Shown: positions 2,580 to 8,724, counted from the first letter of the stretch. The stretch: DNA of 64,000 bases from Sulfurimonas sp. HSL3-1 (GCF_039645995.1 NZ_CP147920.1:496001-560000); one strand, 5' to 3'. Numbers and translations are program-made. The notes: generated by a model from the letters alone, not told the origin.

Positions 2580-2723
2580 ACTTGTTTCCTTTAGCATTCG
2601 CGACGGGCATGCAAAAATGGTTCGGCTATCTAAAAAGTGAATTCTTGCAGGCTATTCTAAAAAAGGCTATTAATGAGGTTTGGTATAAAAGTTTCGGTGT
2701 TTTTTCTTTAAGGAGTGGGATCG

Positions 2724-2967
2724 TTGAATTTGGCAGAGCAGTTCTTCGAGCTAATGGTCATGGTAGGGCTGGAAATGAGGTGTCACGGTGGAGCGCCTCA
2801 ACAGCTCAAAAGAGTACTTCACCGCTAACAGCAAAGATGACGATATCATGCGGGCTGCTTTGCACTACCCTTGCACCGAAACAGAAGGTGTTGTGACGTT
2901 CGAAGTGCGCTTATTAGCTCTTCTGTCTTGTTGTATGCTAATTAATCATAGGCTTTTCGGATTTTAA
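2724..2967 (+). pseudogene. Possible remnant of a small gene in the selO-island gap
   Basis: The gap 2580-2941 holds no clear gene. A TTG at 2724, preceded by AAGGAG, opens a 34-codon frame (MNLAEQFFELMVMVGLEMRC...) that stops at 2826-2828. A second frame opened by a GTG at 2788 (VERLNSSKEYFTANSKDDD...) overlaps it and runs to a stop at 2965-2967, inside the end of the neighbouring TIR gene. Both read like protein, and together they could be a gene frameshifted and cut short when the island arrived. I recognise no family, and it could equally be chance. A longer overlapping frame at 2567-2896 starts inside selO and looks less plausible. Confidence 0.25.
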
Positions 2968-3442
2968 TTGCTTCTTCTATCCAATAGTCAATGTTTTCTG
3001 CAATGTGATTGTAGACATTACTACTTAACTTATATGGAGGGTCATAGGACTTGGCAATGGATGATAGTCTTTTTTTTGTCGGAATATGAGTAATATAAAA
3101 GAGAGGGTTTGCACCCTTTGAAGACTGTTTGCCATTAACATCTTTTAAATTGTGAATGTGAATGACCAACACACCCAAACCCCTGTTCCAAGACTCAACA
3201 ATCTCATGATTAATCCATTTCCTGTTAGCAGTTTTTGAGCCCGCTAGGATAACCGTACATGTTCTTCCTTTCATTTGACTGGATATCCACTCTTTAATTT
3301 TTTTGTCACCTCCACCAACGACAGTTTCCCAATCATTGTCCTTGGCAGGCTTATTTCCTTCGATTGTCCCAATATTTCTAACTTGTGAAACACGCCAATT
3401 GTCTGGTTTGTAATGAAAACTAAAAAAACACTTTCTAGCCAT
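2942..3442 (-). CDS. ThsB-type TIR-like protein (MTH538 fold), second copy
   Basis: This 166-residue protein opens with MARKCFFSFHYKPDNWRVSQ, the start typical of the MTH538 TIR-like domain (Pfam PF08937) found in Thoeris ThsB. ThsB enzymes use NAD to make a cyclic ADP-ribose-type signal on phage infection. A glutamate in WINHE (residue 80) is the candidate catalytic residue. The ATG at 3442 is chosen over one at 3478 because AAAGGAGA sits seven bases ahead. It begins 14 bases after the SLOG-patatin stop, so the two are surely co-transcribed. Its first 112 residues are close to the copy at 5103-5597. The role as signal maker is inferred from the family. Confidence 0.85.
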   Translation of the reverse strand: MARKCFFSFHYKPDNWRVSQVRNIGTIEGNKPAKDNDWETVVGGGDKKIKEWISSQMKGRTCTVILAGSKTANRKWINHEIVESWNRGLGVLVIHIHNLKDVNGKQSSKGANPLFYITHIPTKKRLSSIAKSYDPPYKLSSNVYNHIAENIDYWIEEAIKIRKAYD

Positions 3443-3456
3443 AAATGTCTCCTTTG

Positions 3457-5091
3457 CTAATATTCTGTTATGCGCCAATCAGGAACATGAGTTCCATCAA
3501 AGAATCGTGATCGGACTGCAACAAATGAGTCTTTGCCTATATCGTTTCCCCGCGAAGTCAATTCTGCGATTGCTTCTGCATCATCCAATTTGATTTCACT
3601 TGATGCTTGTTGATTAATGCGAAGATGGTGAGCTGGACCGAGAAAGCCGTCAGCCATAATAGAAGCAGCATGCTCTTGCGCGGAAAAAAAGAGATCCGTA
3701 CTGTCTTCTGCCCATCCAAACTTACCTTTTCCTAGTGATTCAGTAAAATCAATTTCGTGGCTCATCGTTCCTATACTTAGAACATCTATTCTATCCATGG
3801 GGATATTAAGATATCGGACAGCCTCTGCCAATGCTGGAAGTATCGGATTATTGGCCCAAATTCCACCATCAATGAACTTTTCTATTGTGATTGGCCCTTC
3901 ATATGTGGCCTCATCAAAATATGTTGGTGCTGCAGAGGATGCAAGTGCTGCCTCAACAGCAGTGATATCACGGAATGCAGTGCGGTCTTCGCTATGAGCT
4001 GTAGTAATTACCTCGGCTTTCCCATGGAGAGCGCGTACTGTTGGAATGACAAGTCTGCAACACGAGTCATGAGAGAGTGTTTTATCGCCAAAAACATCTT
4101 TTAGCATATCACGGAGAGTTGCTGATTCATGTTTGGACTTAAGCCAATGGCGCAATTTTCTATTTTTGGGGAAAATACTTGATCCTTTTTCTTTATAAAA
4201 ATCTAGTATTTCAGCTGGTGTTAGTCCAAGACTAAGTCCGATGGCAAGTATCGCTCCTGTTGATGTCCCTGCTACAAGATCAAAGTGCTTAATTAGATCA
4301 TTACCACCACCACTCTTAATCATGTCATCCCATTTTGCAAGGACAGCGGCAGTGAACGTGCCCCGTAAACCACCACCATCAAGAACTAATATGCGGAAAT
4401 TACGTCCTTGTGAAACACTTTCTCGAACTAGTGGTAAAAGTTTTAATTGAGTGACAATTGTTTCTGTAAGTTCTTCAACAGTTTCATTTTCTGCAATCTT
4501 TTGGTTTTGTATATCTGAAAGGCCATTTTTGAGACGAGAAATTAATGTTGAATCTTCTTTAACATAGCCAGCTGTTGCACCTCCAAAACTAGTAATAATA
4601 AATCCGGGCTTTCCTAGTGATAACATAGCATCCAATTCGAGAGGAACCCCCGCTCGTTTCTTGTTTGTATCCCACCATTTGCCACCAATACATACAATGA
4701 CATCTGAACGTTCAGCCATCCATTCTCGCATCGGGATCAAATTCTCATTTGGGTCTCCAGGAGCAGAAGGCATTATTTGGACAGAAGCGAATTTTCTTTG
4801 ACGCTCAATTTCTTCCAAGTGTTCAGTTGAGATAGCAAACTTTTGGGCACGGACAAGAACAAGAGAGTCTTTTTCTCCATCTGCTTCGATGAATTGTCTT
4901 GCAGCAGTCTCAAGTGGCTCCAAAAATGTGGGATGGCTTCCGTGAATTAATACCCCTCCTTCACTGAATATCTTACGTGCAAATTTTTCAACAAATTTTC
5001 GTATTCCTGCTTCTTGTTCAGGGGTTGAATCTTCAGGGATTGCACCGGACAGATGAATTCTTACTCCAAGTAAAGGCAAGCTAAGTGGCAT
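3457..5091 (-). CDS. SLOG-patatin: predicted ligand-gated phospholipase effector
   Basis: The 544-residue protein has two parts. Residues 1-190 resemble a SLOG nucleotide-sensor domain: a strand-helix layout with GGKWW at 136-140 and GVPLELDAM at 148-156, the LOG-like pocket. Residues 230-450 are a complete patatin lipase: oxyanion loop DGGGLRG (238-244), nucleophile Ser277 in GTSTG, and catalytic Asp408 in FIDGG. Patatins strip acyl chains from phospholipids; in CBASS the patatin CapV kills infected cells this way. In Thoeris, the SLOG domain of ThsA binds the TIR-made signal. A TIR product switching on this lipase is therefore the obvious inference. It lies between two ThsB-like genes, with gaps of 11 and 14 bases. 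No signal peptide is seen, so it should be cytoplasmic. Confidence 0.88.
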   Translation of the reverse strand: MPLSLPLLGVRIHLSGAIPEDSTPEQEAGIRKFVEKFARKIFSEGGVLIHGSHPTFLEPLETAARQFIEADGEKDSLVLVRAQKFAISTEHLEEIERQRKFASVQIMPSAPGDPNENLIPMREWMAERSDVIVCIGGKWWDTNKKRAGVPLELDAMLSLGKPGFIITSFGGATAGYVKEDSTLISRLKNGLSDIQNQKIAENETVEELTETIVTQLKLLPLVRESVSQGRNFRILVLDGGGLRGTFTAAVLAKWDDMIKSGGGNDLIKHFDLVAGTSTGAILAIGLSLGLTPAEILDFYKEKGSSIFPKNRKLRHWLKSKHESATLRDMLKDVFGDKTLSHDSCCRLVIPTVRALHGKAEVITTAHSEDRTAFRDITAVEAALASSAAPTYFDEATYEGPITIEKFIDGGIWANNPILPALAEAVRYLNIPMDRIDVLSIGTMSHEIDFTESLGKGKFGWAEDSTDLFFSAQEHAASIMADGFLGPAHHLRINQQASSEIKLDDAEAIAELTSRGNDIGKDSFVAVRSRFFDGTHVPDWRITEY

Positions 5092-5102
5092 GGACTTTAT
5101 CC

Positions 5103-5597
5103 TTAGTCGTATTTGTTTCGAATCTCGATGGCTTTTTCAATCCAAGTGGCAAGATTCTCTTTTATATGGTCATAAACGTATGTGCTAGTAGAATATGGAG
5201 GATCATATGCTTTGACAATATTTGCTAGTGATGTGCCATTTAAAGTATATGCATCGAATGGATTAGACCCCTTGCGCGATTGACTTCCATTACTATCCTT
5301 CAAATTATGAATATATATTCCTAGTACTCCCTTTTTGTCATTCCACGCTTTTTTGATTTCATAGTTAATCCACTTTCTTCCAGCAGTATTTTCACCAATA
5401 AGAATAATAGCAACAGATTTTCCATCTAATTGACCATCTATCCATCTTTGAATGGCTGGATCACCACCTTTTTTGACAGTCTCCCAATCATTGTCAGAAA
5501 CAGGTTTGTTTCCATCAATAACACCCATATTTCGTACTTGGGAAACTCGCCAGTTATCTGGTTTGTAGTGAAAACTGTAAAATGCTCTACGAGCCAT
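5103..5597 (-). CDS. ThsB-type TIR-like protein (MTH538 fold), first copy
   Basis: This 164-residue protein belongs to the same MTH538 TIR-like family as the gene at 2942-3442, opening MARRAFYSFHYKPDNWRVSQ and carrying WINYE with the candidate catalytic Glu80. The strand pattern SVAIILIG and VLGIYIHNLK fits the TIR-like core. The ATG at 5597 follows GCAAAGGAGATG; the ATG two codons earlier lacks that spacing. Its stop lies 11 bases before the SLOG-patatin start, so the ribosome site of the patatin gene overlaps it and translation is likely coupled. Thoeris loci often carry several ThsB genes for one effector, each sensing different phages; that is known of the family and inferred here. Confidence 0.87.
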   Translation of the reverse strand: MARRAFYSFHYKPDNWRVSQVRNMGVIDGNKPVSDNDWETVKKGGDPAIQRWIDGQLDGKSVAIILIGENTAGRKWINYEIKKAWNDKKGVLGIYIHNLKDSNGSQSRKGSNPFDAYTLNGTSLANIVKAYDPPYSTSTYVYDHIKENLATWIEKAIEIRNKYD

Positions 5598-5633
5598 AAA
5601 CATCTCCTTTGCTTGATTTTTTATATGAGTTAA

Positions 5634-6212
5634 TCATGTGTATTTTTTCGGATTTTCACCTTTCATCCAATCCTTTAAGGTTACCCATGTTCCAATGCCT
5701 CTTTGAACGTAGAAATTGTCACTAGTTAGATCTAAATAGGGGTACAATCCAAGGTATTCTCGCCCTTCAAACTCTTCATCATCTTCCATGATTGGTGCGA
5801 CAGCAACCCTTCTAGTACGTGCATCCATATAACCTAATTCCCATGGCATCCAGACTGAGCGACTAGCTGATACTGATGTTAAATATATTAAAGAAGAGCA
5901 GTGATCCATTCTATTTCGAAGTACAGTGGCTGTATATTCTGATACATGATCTCTATTTAATTGATTGTCTTCTATCCAGTCTACATAAACAGAATATCCT
6001 TGCTTAAGTAACATGTCACGAATTTGCTTTACAATCCTTGCATCTGAATATGCATGAGATAAAAAAATATCATATGTTTCGGTAAAAGAAAACGATTCAA
6101 ATACTTCATTTAAAGAATTCGAGGCCCACTGTTTTTCTCGATATTCTTCAAAAAGAGTGGACTGAGCTGCATTGTAACGAGCTAGCAAGTCTGATTTTCT
6201 CAATACTGCCAT
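5634..6212 (-). CDS. Free-standing TIR-domain protein
   Basis: The 192-residue product has a short helical N-terminus (1-45) and then a TIR domain: YDIFLSHAYSD (residues 47-57), the GYSVYVDW strand, and WMPWELGYMD, where Glu125 matches the catalytic glutamate of NAD-consuming TIR enzymes. This class differs from the MTH538 type next door, so the operon carries two TIR lineages. It sits 74 bases after the ATPase-TIR gene and 36 bases before the first ThsB-like gene, all on one strand. It may be a further signal maker or a separate NAD hydrolase. No partner domain is fused to it. The start at 6212 has a modest GGAG upstream. Confidence 0.85.
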   Translation of the reverse strand: MAVLRKSDLLARYNAAQSTLFEEYREKQWASNSLNEVFESFSFTETYDIFLSHAYSDARIVKQIRDMLLKQGYSVYVDWIEDNQLNRDHVSEYTATVLRNRMDHCSSLIYLTSVSASRSVWMPWELGYMDARTRRVAVAPIMEDDEEFEGREYLGLYPYLDLTSDNFYVQRGIGTWVTLKDWMKGENPKKYT

Positions 6213-6286
6213 GCAACTCCAATCGTGTCACAACAATCTGAATTAAGCACACGAATCCCTTATAAGCATCGGCTGCTCTATTTGAC

Positions 6287-7756
6287 TTAACCAAGCCTCT
6301 CTATAAGTTTGAAAGCAATTTCATCCGTAACACGTGCGCTCTCTGACTCTGGATTTTCGTCTCGTTTGAAGTGAATCCCTATAATATCCTTTGGAATTCC
6401 CACAAATGTTGTGTCGTCCAAGAAAATAGGAATAACATCGCCGTCTGGTACGCGGGGAAGAAAACATTCTCGTTCAAAGGTTGGCCAGATTTTCTCACGA
6501 TAATAGTTGTCTAAAAGACAAACTACAAGACGAGAGTCGCTCCCAAAGATTCGCTCAAATTGAGTTGACCAGGCGCCACCAAGAAAGTTAGCTTCGAAGT
6601 GTTCATCGTAAAATACATGAGCATCGAGAAGAGAAAGCTGCTGGGCTATCTCACGAGCAAGTTCCCTGTTCTCACCTGCAAATGAGACTGCAAAGTCATA
6701 TTCAACGTCTCGTCCCGCAGCTCTGAATCCGCAATCATGTCTTAACTTCGCCCAATCTAAGTGTTTGAGGAAATAAAAAAGTGCAGGATCTTCGATTGCG
6801 AAGTTTGTCGTTTCGGCATTGTAGTAAAAGTGGCGTGCACAAGTCGGTTTATCTCTCAGGAGGATTGCTAGGCGACTCCCCTTGATATTATTAATGCTAC
6901 CGCGGATATCTTCATTTGAATTTGCGAGTTCATTCAGATCGACTATTGAGCTTTCCTGTTGACTGATTTTCTGCAGAAGTTTTAAATAGGGGTCGTTGTT
7001 GGGCCTAAAACGTACCCCTCTACAGAACTCCTTAACTGCGGGATAAAATGCAGCAGAAAGCCTCTCCACAACTCTTTTTCTCAAGAGTGCAATATCGAAT
7101 GAAAGTTCGCGTTTATTGTCTAACGTTTCCAGCACATCATTCATTATACAGATCGTTTGACATAGTTGCTGTGTAAGCCAATAGTCGCCACGTGATTCTT
7201 TGAATACTGATTCTACATCTGGGATATCCACGTTTAGCGCAGCAGATCCCTCTTTAATGAGTCGTTCTATATCTACTTTGGATCCCGCTTGTATCCGGTG
7301 GATTCCAGTTCGCTTGGCAATATCTGGTACTAATTGTATTAACTCCGATCCAACCTGGTTTATCCCAATAAGAACTAATTTAGTTTGCGATGTACTGGTC
7401 TGGCCGGATTCAGCAGCGAACTTTGCGATATTGGCAAGTTGCTCCTGTGTTTCGGTGGCGAGACGATGGAAATCGTCAATGACAAAACGTCCGGGTGCTC
7501 TGGATCGTATAATTTCCTCGATACGATGTATATTGGTCGCATCTCTGGCCGTTAAGTATTCTGCAGCTTCGCCACCAAGTTGTTCAAGAATTTTTCGCAC
7601 ACACGTTGTCTTCCCAGTACCGGACTGCCCCTCAATTATCACTGGTTTCCCTGGATGACGAATGTCTAATAAAATTTCGTTGAAATTTGGAGGTTTCACA
7701 AATGTGAACTTTGGAATACCCTCAGTTACAAAGACTTCTTCGACTAGCTGTTGCAT
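6287..7756 (-). CDS. P-loop (STAND-like) ATPase with C-terminal TIR domain
   Basis: The 489-residue protein starts with an ATPase module: Walker A GQSGTGKT (43-50), Walker B FVIDD (91-95), then a helical region to about residue 340. The C-terminal 140 residues form a TIR domain with YDFAVSFAGE (353-362) and a Trp-x3-Glu motif (WPTFERE, Glu428) as candidate catalytic site. NACHT/STAND proteins with TIR ends are known anti-phage sensors that oligomerise and burn NAD. Here the sensor repeats usually found after the ATPase (TPR, WD40) are absent, which makes the protein compact. It is first in the island operon, with a TATAAT element 29 bases upstream. It may work alone or feed the Thoeris-like genes behind it. 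Confidence 0.85.
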   Translation of the reverse strand: MQQLVEEVFVTEGIPKFTFVKPPNFNEILLDIRHPGKPVIIEGQSGTGKTTCVRKILEQLGGEAAEYLTARDATNIHRIEEIIRSRAPGRFVIDDFHRLATETQEQLANIAKFAAESGQTSTSQTKLVLIGINQVGSELIQLVPDIAKRTGIHRIQAGSKVDIERLIKEGSAALNVDIPDVESVFKESRGDYWLTQQLCQTICIMNDVLETLDNKRELSFDIALLRKRVVERLSAAFYPAVKEFCRGVRFRPNNDPYLKLLQKISQQESSIVDLNELANSNEDIRGSINNIKGSRLAILLRDKPTCARHFYYNAETTNFAIEDPALFYFLKHLDWAKLRHDCGFRAAGRDVEYDFAVSFAGENRELAREIAQQLSLLDAHVFYDEHFEANFLGGAWSTQFERIFGSDSRLVVCLLDNYYREKIWPTFERECFLPRVPDGDVIPIFLDDTTFVGIPKDIIGIHFKRDENPESESARVTDEIAFKLIERLG

Positions 7757-7784
7757 GTGTTACTTTTCCTGCCTTATTGTATAG

Positions 7785-7790
7785 ATTATA
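7785..7790 (-). promoter_or_regulatory. Candidate -10 element of the defence operon
   Basis: A perfect TATAAT on the minus strand lies 29 bases upstream of the ATG of the ATPase-TIR gene. I see no convincing -35 box. Confidence 0.5.
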
Positions 7791-7809
7791 TGAGTAGAGG
7801 ACATTTTAT

Positions 7810-7819
7810 GTTAATTAAC
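7810..7819. promoter_or_regulatory. Palindrome GTTAATTAAC upstream of the island promoter
   Basis: A perfect 10-base palindrome is centred about 27 bases upstream of the TATAAT box, where a regulator could act. Short AT-rich palindromes are common, so this is only suggestive. Confidence 0.3.
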
Positions 7820-7896
7820 CTTTAATCGTCAAAAACTGTTAAACAAAGATAATGTGATACTATGCAAGAAGCGGCTTTAACCCGCAAAGCGATACA

Positions 7897-8724
7897 ATGC
7901 CGATTATGAAAAAACTCACAGTAGCAATGATCGGTGACGTTGTCGGGCGGCCGGGACGGTCGATGATCAAGCAGCACCTGCCGCGGCTCAAAAAGGAGCA
8001 CGGCATCGACTTCGTCGTGGCCAACTACGAGAACGCCAGCCACGGCTTCGGGCTGACGGCCAAGAACGCCGACGAGCTTCTTGCAGCCGGTGTGGACGTT
8101 ATGACCGGGGGCAACCACAGCTTCGACAAGAAAGAGATCATCCCCCTTTTTGAAAAGCTGCCGCTGTTGCGTCCGCACAACTACCCCGAGGCGATGCCGG
8201 GCAAAGGCACAGGCATGTACGAGGTGAACGGCGTCAAAGTCGGGGTACTCAATGTCATGGGCTACTACGCCATGCCGATGGTCGACAACCCCTTCATCTG
8301 CGCGCAGAAGAGCGTCGAGGCGCTGCGGCGCGAGGGGGCCGAGGTCATCCTCGTCGACATGCACGCCGAGGCGACGAGCGAGAAAAGGGCGCTGCTGATG
8401 ATGCTGCGGGGCCACGTCAGCGCCATCATCGGTACCCATACCCACGTGGCGACGGACGACCTGCAGATTGACGGCGGCACGGGCTACGTCACGGACCTTG
8501 GCCTCAGCGGCTGCCGCGACAACGTTATCGGGATGGACCCCAAGATCCCGCTGCAGCGTTTCCTCACAGGCCTTCCCGGCCACTTTAACGTCCCGGAGAA
8601 GTGTAAAAAGATTTTGCAGACCGCCGTGTTCGAGCTGGACGAGAAGGGGCGCTGCGTAAGCGCCAAGAAGATCAAGACCTTCGACGACGGGCGCGAGATC
8701 ATCACCGATGCCTGGGAAGTCTAG
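7897..8724 (+). CDS. YmdB-family metallophosphoesterase (TIGR00282 type)
   Basis: The 275-residue protein has the metal-binding signatures of the YmdB/DR1281 family: GDVVGRPG near the N-terminus, NYENASHG, GGNHSFDKK, and GTHTHVATDD near residue 180. Members are two-metal phosphodiesterases; the Bacillus enzyme hydrolyses cyclic nucleotides and affects stress and biofilm choices. Neither possible start (7897 or the ATG at 7906) has a strong ribosome site. It is transcribed away from the defence island, with about 140 bases between. A cyclic-nucleotide esterase beside a nucleotide-signalling island is probably coincidence, because this gene has the base composition of the host chromosome. Confidence 0.88.
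   Translation: MPIMKKLTVAMIGDVVGRPGRSMIKQHLPRLKKEHGIDFVVANYENASHGFGLTAKNADELLAAGVDVMTGGNHSFDKKEIIPLFEKLPLLRPHNYPEAMPGKGTGMYEVNGVKVGVLNVMGYYAMPMVDNPFICAQKSVEALRREGAEVILVDMHAEATSEKRALLMMLRGHVSAIIGTHTHVATDDLQIDGGTGYVTDLGLSGCRDNVIGMDPKIPLQRFLTGLPGHFNVPEKCKKILQTAVFELDEKGRCVSAKKIKTFDDGREIITDAWEV

Follow-up and report, generated by a model that had tools for sequence, protein, structure and literature searches.

The locus described here raises the question of which signal drives its lipase. A gene that joins a SLOG domain to a patatin phospholipase lies between two small TIR genes in a 64,000-nucleotide stretch of the Sulfurimonas sp. HSL3-1 genome (NZ_CP147920.1:496001-560000; hereafter the window), and parts of it resemble two different bacterial immune systems. 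On the strength of sequence comparison and structure modelling, we consider it likely that the locus is a Thoeris-like abortive-infection operon, with a lipase effector that would be driven by a TIR-made signal.

The operon comprises five minus-strand genes situated between SelO (846-2597) and YmdB (7897-8724). The intergenic gaps are 11-74 bp, and the GC content of the operon genes is 36-43%, compared with 61-62% in SelO and YmdB. This spacing, the GC contrast and conservation across phyla place the operon far beyond chance. An earlier note on this DNA had confined the system to 2942-5597. Its last three genes were correctly identified, but the operon reaches 7756 and two further TIR genes had been omitted. 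The features, in window coordinates, are as follows:

7785-7814, minus strand: promoter-like TTAACA-18-TATAAT, matching at 11/12 positions, on the operon's upstream side (motif match; the position is suggestive, and such sites occur in the region in the number expected by chance)
6287-7756, minus strand: NTPase-TIR protein of 489 aa, the first gene of the operon (Pfam, PADLOC)
5634-6212, minus strand: TIR protein of 192 aa with a WMPWEL motif (TIR_2, PADLOC ThsB, PDB)
5103-5597, minus strand: upstream ThsB-type TIR protein, 5' of the effector (PF08937, PDB)
3457-5091, minus strand: SLOG-patatin effector of 544 aa (PF18163 and PF01734)
4423-5091, minus strand: SLOG sensor domain, effector residues 1-223 (AlphaFold2, PDB fold matches)
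3829-4389, minus strand: patatin phospholipase domain, effector residues 235-421 (PF01734, NCBIfam CBASS_lipase, PDB)
2942-3442, minus strand: second ThsB-type TIR protein, 3' of the effector with a 14-bp gap (PF08937)

The effector is encoded by a single-copy gene in this genome. Its patatin domain scores above the Pfam cut-off (PF01734, 3.2e-30), and the same half of the protein passes the NCBIfam CBASS_lipase model (228 bits, cut-off 200), marking it as a CapV-type patatin effector, a feature of CBASS. Its nearest relatives in the PDB are the CBASS patatins 9wn1 (1.4e-36) and CapV 8zr9 (2.9e-29). The DGGGLRG motif occupies residues 238-244, Ser277 lies within GTSTG (4261-4263) and Asp408 within DGG (3868-3870). 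Asp408 is invariant and Ser277 nearly so across 24 effector homologues, and the patatin previously read as intact from these motifs is indeed so. A Castellaniella metagenome-assembled genome (MAG) encodes a SLOG-patatin (L032:8001-9614) with GTATG in place of GTSTG and has thereby lost the nucleophile, through either natural inactivation or an error in the sequence. Most SLOG-patatins carry the RefSeq label ‘CBASS cGAMP-activated phospholipase’ (plasmid proteins H1-H13; E. coli proteins H70-H73), which is explained by the patatin half passing the CBASS_lipase cut-off. For this effector the label looks wrong, for reasons that lie in its other half and in its gene neighbourhood.

The N-terminal part of the effector belongs to SLOG cluster2 (LD_cluster2, PF18163; 27.6 bits, cut-off 25.3). 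An AlphaFold2 model of residues 1-223, made with an alignment of 19 SLOG domains, reached a pLDDT of 91.4 and a pTM of 0.90, and its top PDB fold match was 7uxs, in which the SLOG domain of BcThsA binds 3'cADPR (E=1.5e-6, probability 1.00, TM 0.64/0.71). The ten best matches were BcThsA or SeThsA, and 11 of the 12 best were BcThsA, SeThsA or EcThsA; LOG enzymes and TRPM channels matched more weakly. The proposal of a SLOG-like N-terminal sensor therefore holds at the level of both profile and fold, with ThsA as the closest structure. This likeness emerged from the fold search only: a profile sequence search of the PDB with the SLOG domain returned nothing meaningful, and only about 14% of residues are identical between this domain and ThsA. 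The window protein falls into LD_cluster2 instead of STALD, the SLOG family of ThsA, for which its homologues remained below the cut-off; a STALD search across 298 genomes of the phylum gave zero matches above it. The ThcA family (SLOG cluster3) aligns with the effector's SLOG family at the same motifs (hhalign probability 69%, E=5e-5), while the NCBIfam ThcA model matches the effector weakly and in its SLOG part only (20 bits, cut-off 110). A model of the full-length effector had a pLDDT of 58.6 and was poor beyond the SLOG part, such that the interface between SLOG and patatin is not readable from it.

Invariant positions in the effector's SLOG family are R122, GG136-137, G148 and E152. In the SLOG family of ThsA, Ser288, Phe357, Arg371 and Glu403 form a conserved pocket (Ka et al., PMC7272460). 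Placed by fold position rather than by superposition, S15, F86 (F or Y), R122 and E152 would occupy the ThsA pocket positions, with S15, R122 and E152 the putative counterparts of Ser288, Arg371 and Glu403. Given the low identity to ThsA, the domain may bind another ADP-ribose derivative than ThsA does. It could also be argued that the SLOG domain does not sense a diffusible TIR product, and instead either synthesises or breaks down a nucleotide signal as an enzyme or binds a TIR protein directly. Some SLOG (LOG) proteins are indeed enzymes acting on AMP-like substrates (PMC9503650), and LOG enzymes are found among the weaker fold matches. However, the signal-binding ThsA domains outrank them, and the many unlike TIR families that partner the effector (see below) argue against one specific protein contact. 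We consider this explanation improbable, and favour a sensor domain.

The partners on either side of the effector gene, 11-14 bp away, match the ThsB_TIR family far above the cut-off (PF08937; E=1.9e-26 upstream, 1.5e-27 downstream) as well as the PADLOC ThsB models, in agreement with the earlier description of two ThsB-type genes closely flanking the SLOG-patatin gene. An AAAGGAG site precedes the downstream ATG at 3442, and the same motif favours ATG 5597 over ATG 5603 as the start of the upstream gene. PDB matches of the upstream protein include 8wcf (9.3e-44) and BcThsB 6lhy (2e-21). Its Glu82 (in WINYEI, counted from ATG 5603) aligns with residue 87 of the 6lhy chain, which we take to be the NADase glutamate of TIR enzymes, and the downstream protein keeps Glu80 in WINHEI (counted from ATG 3442). 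The Thoeris feature of a TIR protein with the NADase glutamate is thus present in the operon. The two paralogues share 60% identity, whereas the upstream copy shares 74% with the ThsB whose gene immediately precedes the Aliarcobacter SLOG-patatin gene (L022). From these identities, the pair of ThsB and SLOG-patatin looks like the core unit, to which the other TIR genes would be additions.

The 192-aa TIR protein matches TIR_2 (8.9e-9), PADLOC ThsB model PDLC00422 (4.8e-53) and PDB 8btn_B (7.8e-41), and is 73% identical to the TIR protein of an E. coli plasmid locus (L003:10541-11110). The 489-aa protein is a STAND/AAA-like NTPase (Pfam AAA_22 8.6e-9, nSTAND3 5.9e-6) with a C-terminal TIR_2 domain at 355-468 (7.3e-8), and matches PADLOC PDC-S59 (3.5e-13). 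Its homologue in Pantoea (L007:3467-4933; 52% identical) also adjoins a SLOG-patatin gene, and it is probably an extra sensor or signal maker.

The coupling of effector and TIR genes was assessed in a survey of SLOG-patatin loci not selected for TIR genes. It comprised seven of 13 plasmid records found by tblastn, 23 genomic loci from a SLOG-only query and one viral contig, making 32 loci with the window. A same-strand TIR gene lies within 1 kb in 30 of the 32, often 12-150 bp away. The 21 of 23 genomic loci with a TIR partner are the fairer count, since some plasmid loci are near-identical. The two exceptions are an intact SLOG-patatin beside insertion-sequence genes in Planctomycete Poly30 (L025) and a frame-broken MAG fragment (L041). 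By comparison, relatives of this genome provided 12 loci with a patatin but no SLOG domain, of which none had a TIR neighbour and eight had a cyclase neighbour. The coupling postulated in the earlier note is therefore supported, as homologues without a TIR partner are the minority.

This survey also bears on whether the patatin simply answers a CD-NTase cyclic nucleotide as a CBASS effector, with the SLOG domain and TIR genes being incidental. As shown above, the patatin half resembles CBASS lipases by both profile and structure. However, a CD-NTase was absent from all 32 loci, and a search of this genome found no SMODS nucleotidyltransferase although its E. coli control was positive. Furthermore, the fused SLOG domain and the adjacent TIR genes are conserved, and true CapV-like relatives do adjoin cyclases. 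We regard the CBASS explanation as highly improbable, and prefer a TIR-made signal as the cue.

TIR-partnered loci come from Campylobacterota, from three classes of proteobacteria (alpha, beta and gamma) and from a MAG with the label Gemmatimonadetes, and the partner family varies with lineage: ThsB type, 199-aa type, 275-aa type, ThcB4 or TIR-WD40. That such unlike families serve as the adjacent partner fits a common TIR product being what matters. In Bradyrhizobium elkanii (L006:5962-10962) a 1032-aa TIR-WD40 protein is the only TIR partner; the SLOG-patatin of this distant branch is 38% identical to that of the window. The SLOG-patatin family is carried on large Enterobacterales plasmids, many of them conjugative, and is also present in four complete genomes of E. 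coli. Among viral contigs there was one SLOG-patatin (L044), within the same TIR operon type, while phage records yielded only distant patatins.

Sister genomes of the genus carry the same SelO and YmdB genes, which are adjacent and insert-free in G003. Elsewhere the gap between them holds Septu (G006; PtuA 4e-198, PtuB 2.6e-106), a ThsB_TIR gene with a caspase-domain gene (G007), or SIR2, metallo-beta-lactamase-like and deaminase-like genes (G004). These differing defence-type sets identify the SelO-YmdB interval (window 2597-7897) as a defence hotspot. The related genomes searched contained no full-length SLOG-patatin, which together with the site points to horizontal gain and a role in defence. 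Between inserted modules, the 5' end of ymdB is repeated in copies of about 70-210 bp with 80-93% identity (L074:5636-5852 and 8284-8352; L075:4795-5003; L076:4288-4426 and 6861-6929), as if the start of the gene had been rebuilt with every insertion; no such copies were found in the window's own island.

A hotspot may also accumulate unrelated genes, and the NTPase-TIR and 192-aa TIR proteins could be stand-alone NADase killers stacked beside the only two components that belong together, ThsB and the SLOG-patatin. Consistent with this, unrelated systems occupy the site in sister genomes, and NTPase-TIR was seen in just one other examined locus (Pantoea L007). The two-gene form also stands alone in Sulfurimonas (L021) and Aliarcobacter (L022), where ThsB, 12 bp upstream of the SLOG-patatin, is the sole recognisable TIR partner. 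Against it, the five genes are closely spaced on one strand, all three TIR types (192-aa type, ThsB and NTPase-TIR) recur around the Pantoea SLOG-patatin, and the first two recur in other enterobacterial loci. We find such stacking rather unlikely; it would be compatible with a TIR-to-lipase mechanism, but in a system of only two or three genes. The Sulfurimonas MAG with the two-gene form encodes a HET-domain protein (PF06985, 1.8e-12; L021:1267-2718) directly upstream of ThsB and the SLOG-patatin.

The domains, the ThsA-like fold, the catalytic motifs of both enzymes, the operon, the TIR linkage, the absence of a cyclase and the defence site were all established directly. Beyond these, we infer the identity of the signal, its binding by SLOG, the activation of the lipase and the protection from phage. 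In the favoured TIR-to-lipase mechanism, the TIR proteins would detect phage infection and turn NAD+ into an ADP-ribose-type signal. This signal could bind to the effector through its ThsA-like SLOG domain and alter the effector's assembly, thereby switching on the fused CapV-like patatin. Hydrolysis of membrane phospholipids by the patatin would then kill the infected cell ahead of phage release.

The literature available for search contains no description of a SLOG-patatin beside TIR genes. Thoeris is cited with types as far as VI, and a preprint of December 2025 that surveys TIR signalling systems (cited in PMC13232231) may already include it. We are somewhat doubtful that the exact effector is still undescribed. 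Only tentatively do we suggest that this is a Thoeris type still to be described, its several unlike TIR sensors all feeding into a single lipase built of a ThsA-like SLOG and a CBASS patatin; in many proteobacteria, where it lies beside ThcA, one locus could read more than one TIR-made signal and answer with membrane hydrolysis. If the TIR-to-lipase mechanism is true, it would connect two pathways of bacterial immunity by joining a Thoeris-type sensor to a CBASS-type lipase, give TIR signalling a membrane-degrading output, and correct the RefSeq name for this class of proteins. Choice of a TIR product by a SLOG domain so divergent from ThsA (14% identity) would show evolution of signal specificity. 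The presence of the family in E. coli genomes and on Enterobacterales plasmids makes the proposal testable in E. coli with phages.

Among known systems, Thoeris type I likewise combines ThsB-type TIR genes, catalytic glutamate included, and an effector with a SLOG domain in one operon, and ThsA structures are the best PDB match to the SLOG fold seen here. The SIR2-SLOG protein ThsA is switched on by 3'cADPR (PMC11204291, PMC12847820). In contrast to that SIR2 NADase, the effector enzyme here is a patatin lipase: Pfam finds only SLOG and Patatin in the effector, and no SIR2 domain. The SLOG domain is also N-terminal and of cluster2 rather than STALD, and there are four TIR genes in the window. 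No NCBIfam Thoeris model (June 2026) matched the effector above its cut-off, and Pfam detected no TM-macro domain, the effector of type II, in the operon.

Type III (NCBIfam ThcA and ThcB4) likewise pairs a SLOG protein (ThcA, cluster3) with TIR partners, but ThcA lacks a lipase domain. Genes for ThcA and ThcB4 do occur in the neighbourhood of most beta- and gammaproteobacterial SLOG-patatin loci. Yet 17 of 29 plasmid records with ThcB4 (e.g., L078, L079) fall outside the set of 13 with a full-length SLOG-patatin, and this genome matches neither ThcA nor ThcB4. We therefore take them to be separable neighbours of the SLOG-patatin rather than parts of one fixed system, and type III membership is rejected for this genome. 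In type IV, a TIR-made signal turns on a degradative effector (PMC12847820), much as proposed here, and the SelO-YmdB interval of G007 holds a TIR-caspase pair. The type IV effector is, however, a caspase-like protease, and no caspase domain was found by Pfam in the five operon proteins.

The PADLOC candidate system PDC-M50 resembles the locus in its B subunit model, which matches both ThsB proteins (5.9e-62, 1.6e-65), but the SLOG-patatin matches none of its partner models. With CapV/patatin CBASS, the operon has in common a homologous patatin with the same catalytic dyad. It differs in its added SLOG sensor and in having no CD-NTase or source of cyclic oligonucleotides; with neither CD-NTase in the loci nor SMODS in the genome, CBASS membership is rejected. 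The TIR feature and the SLOG fold fit Thoeris, and with neither the effectors of types I, II and IV nor the markers of type III, the operon is probably Thoeris-like.
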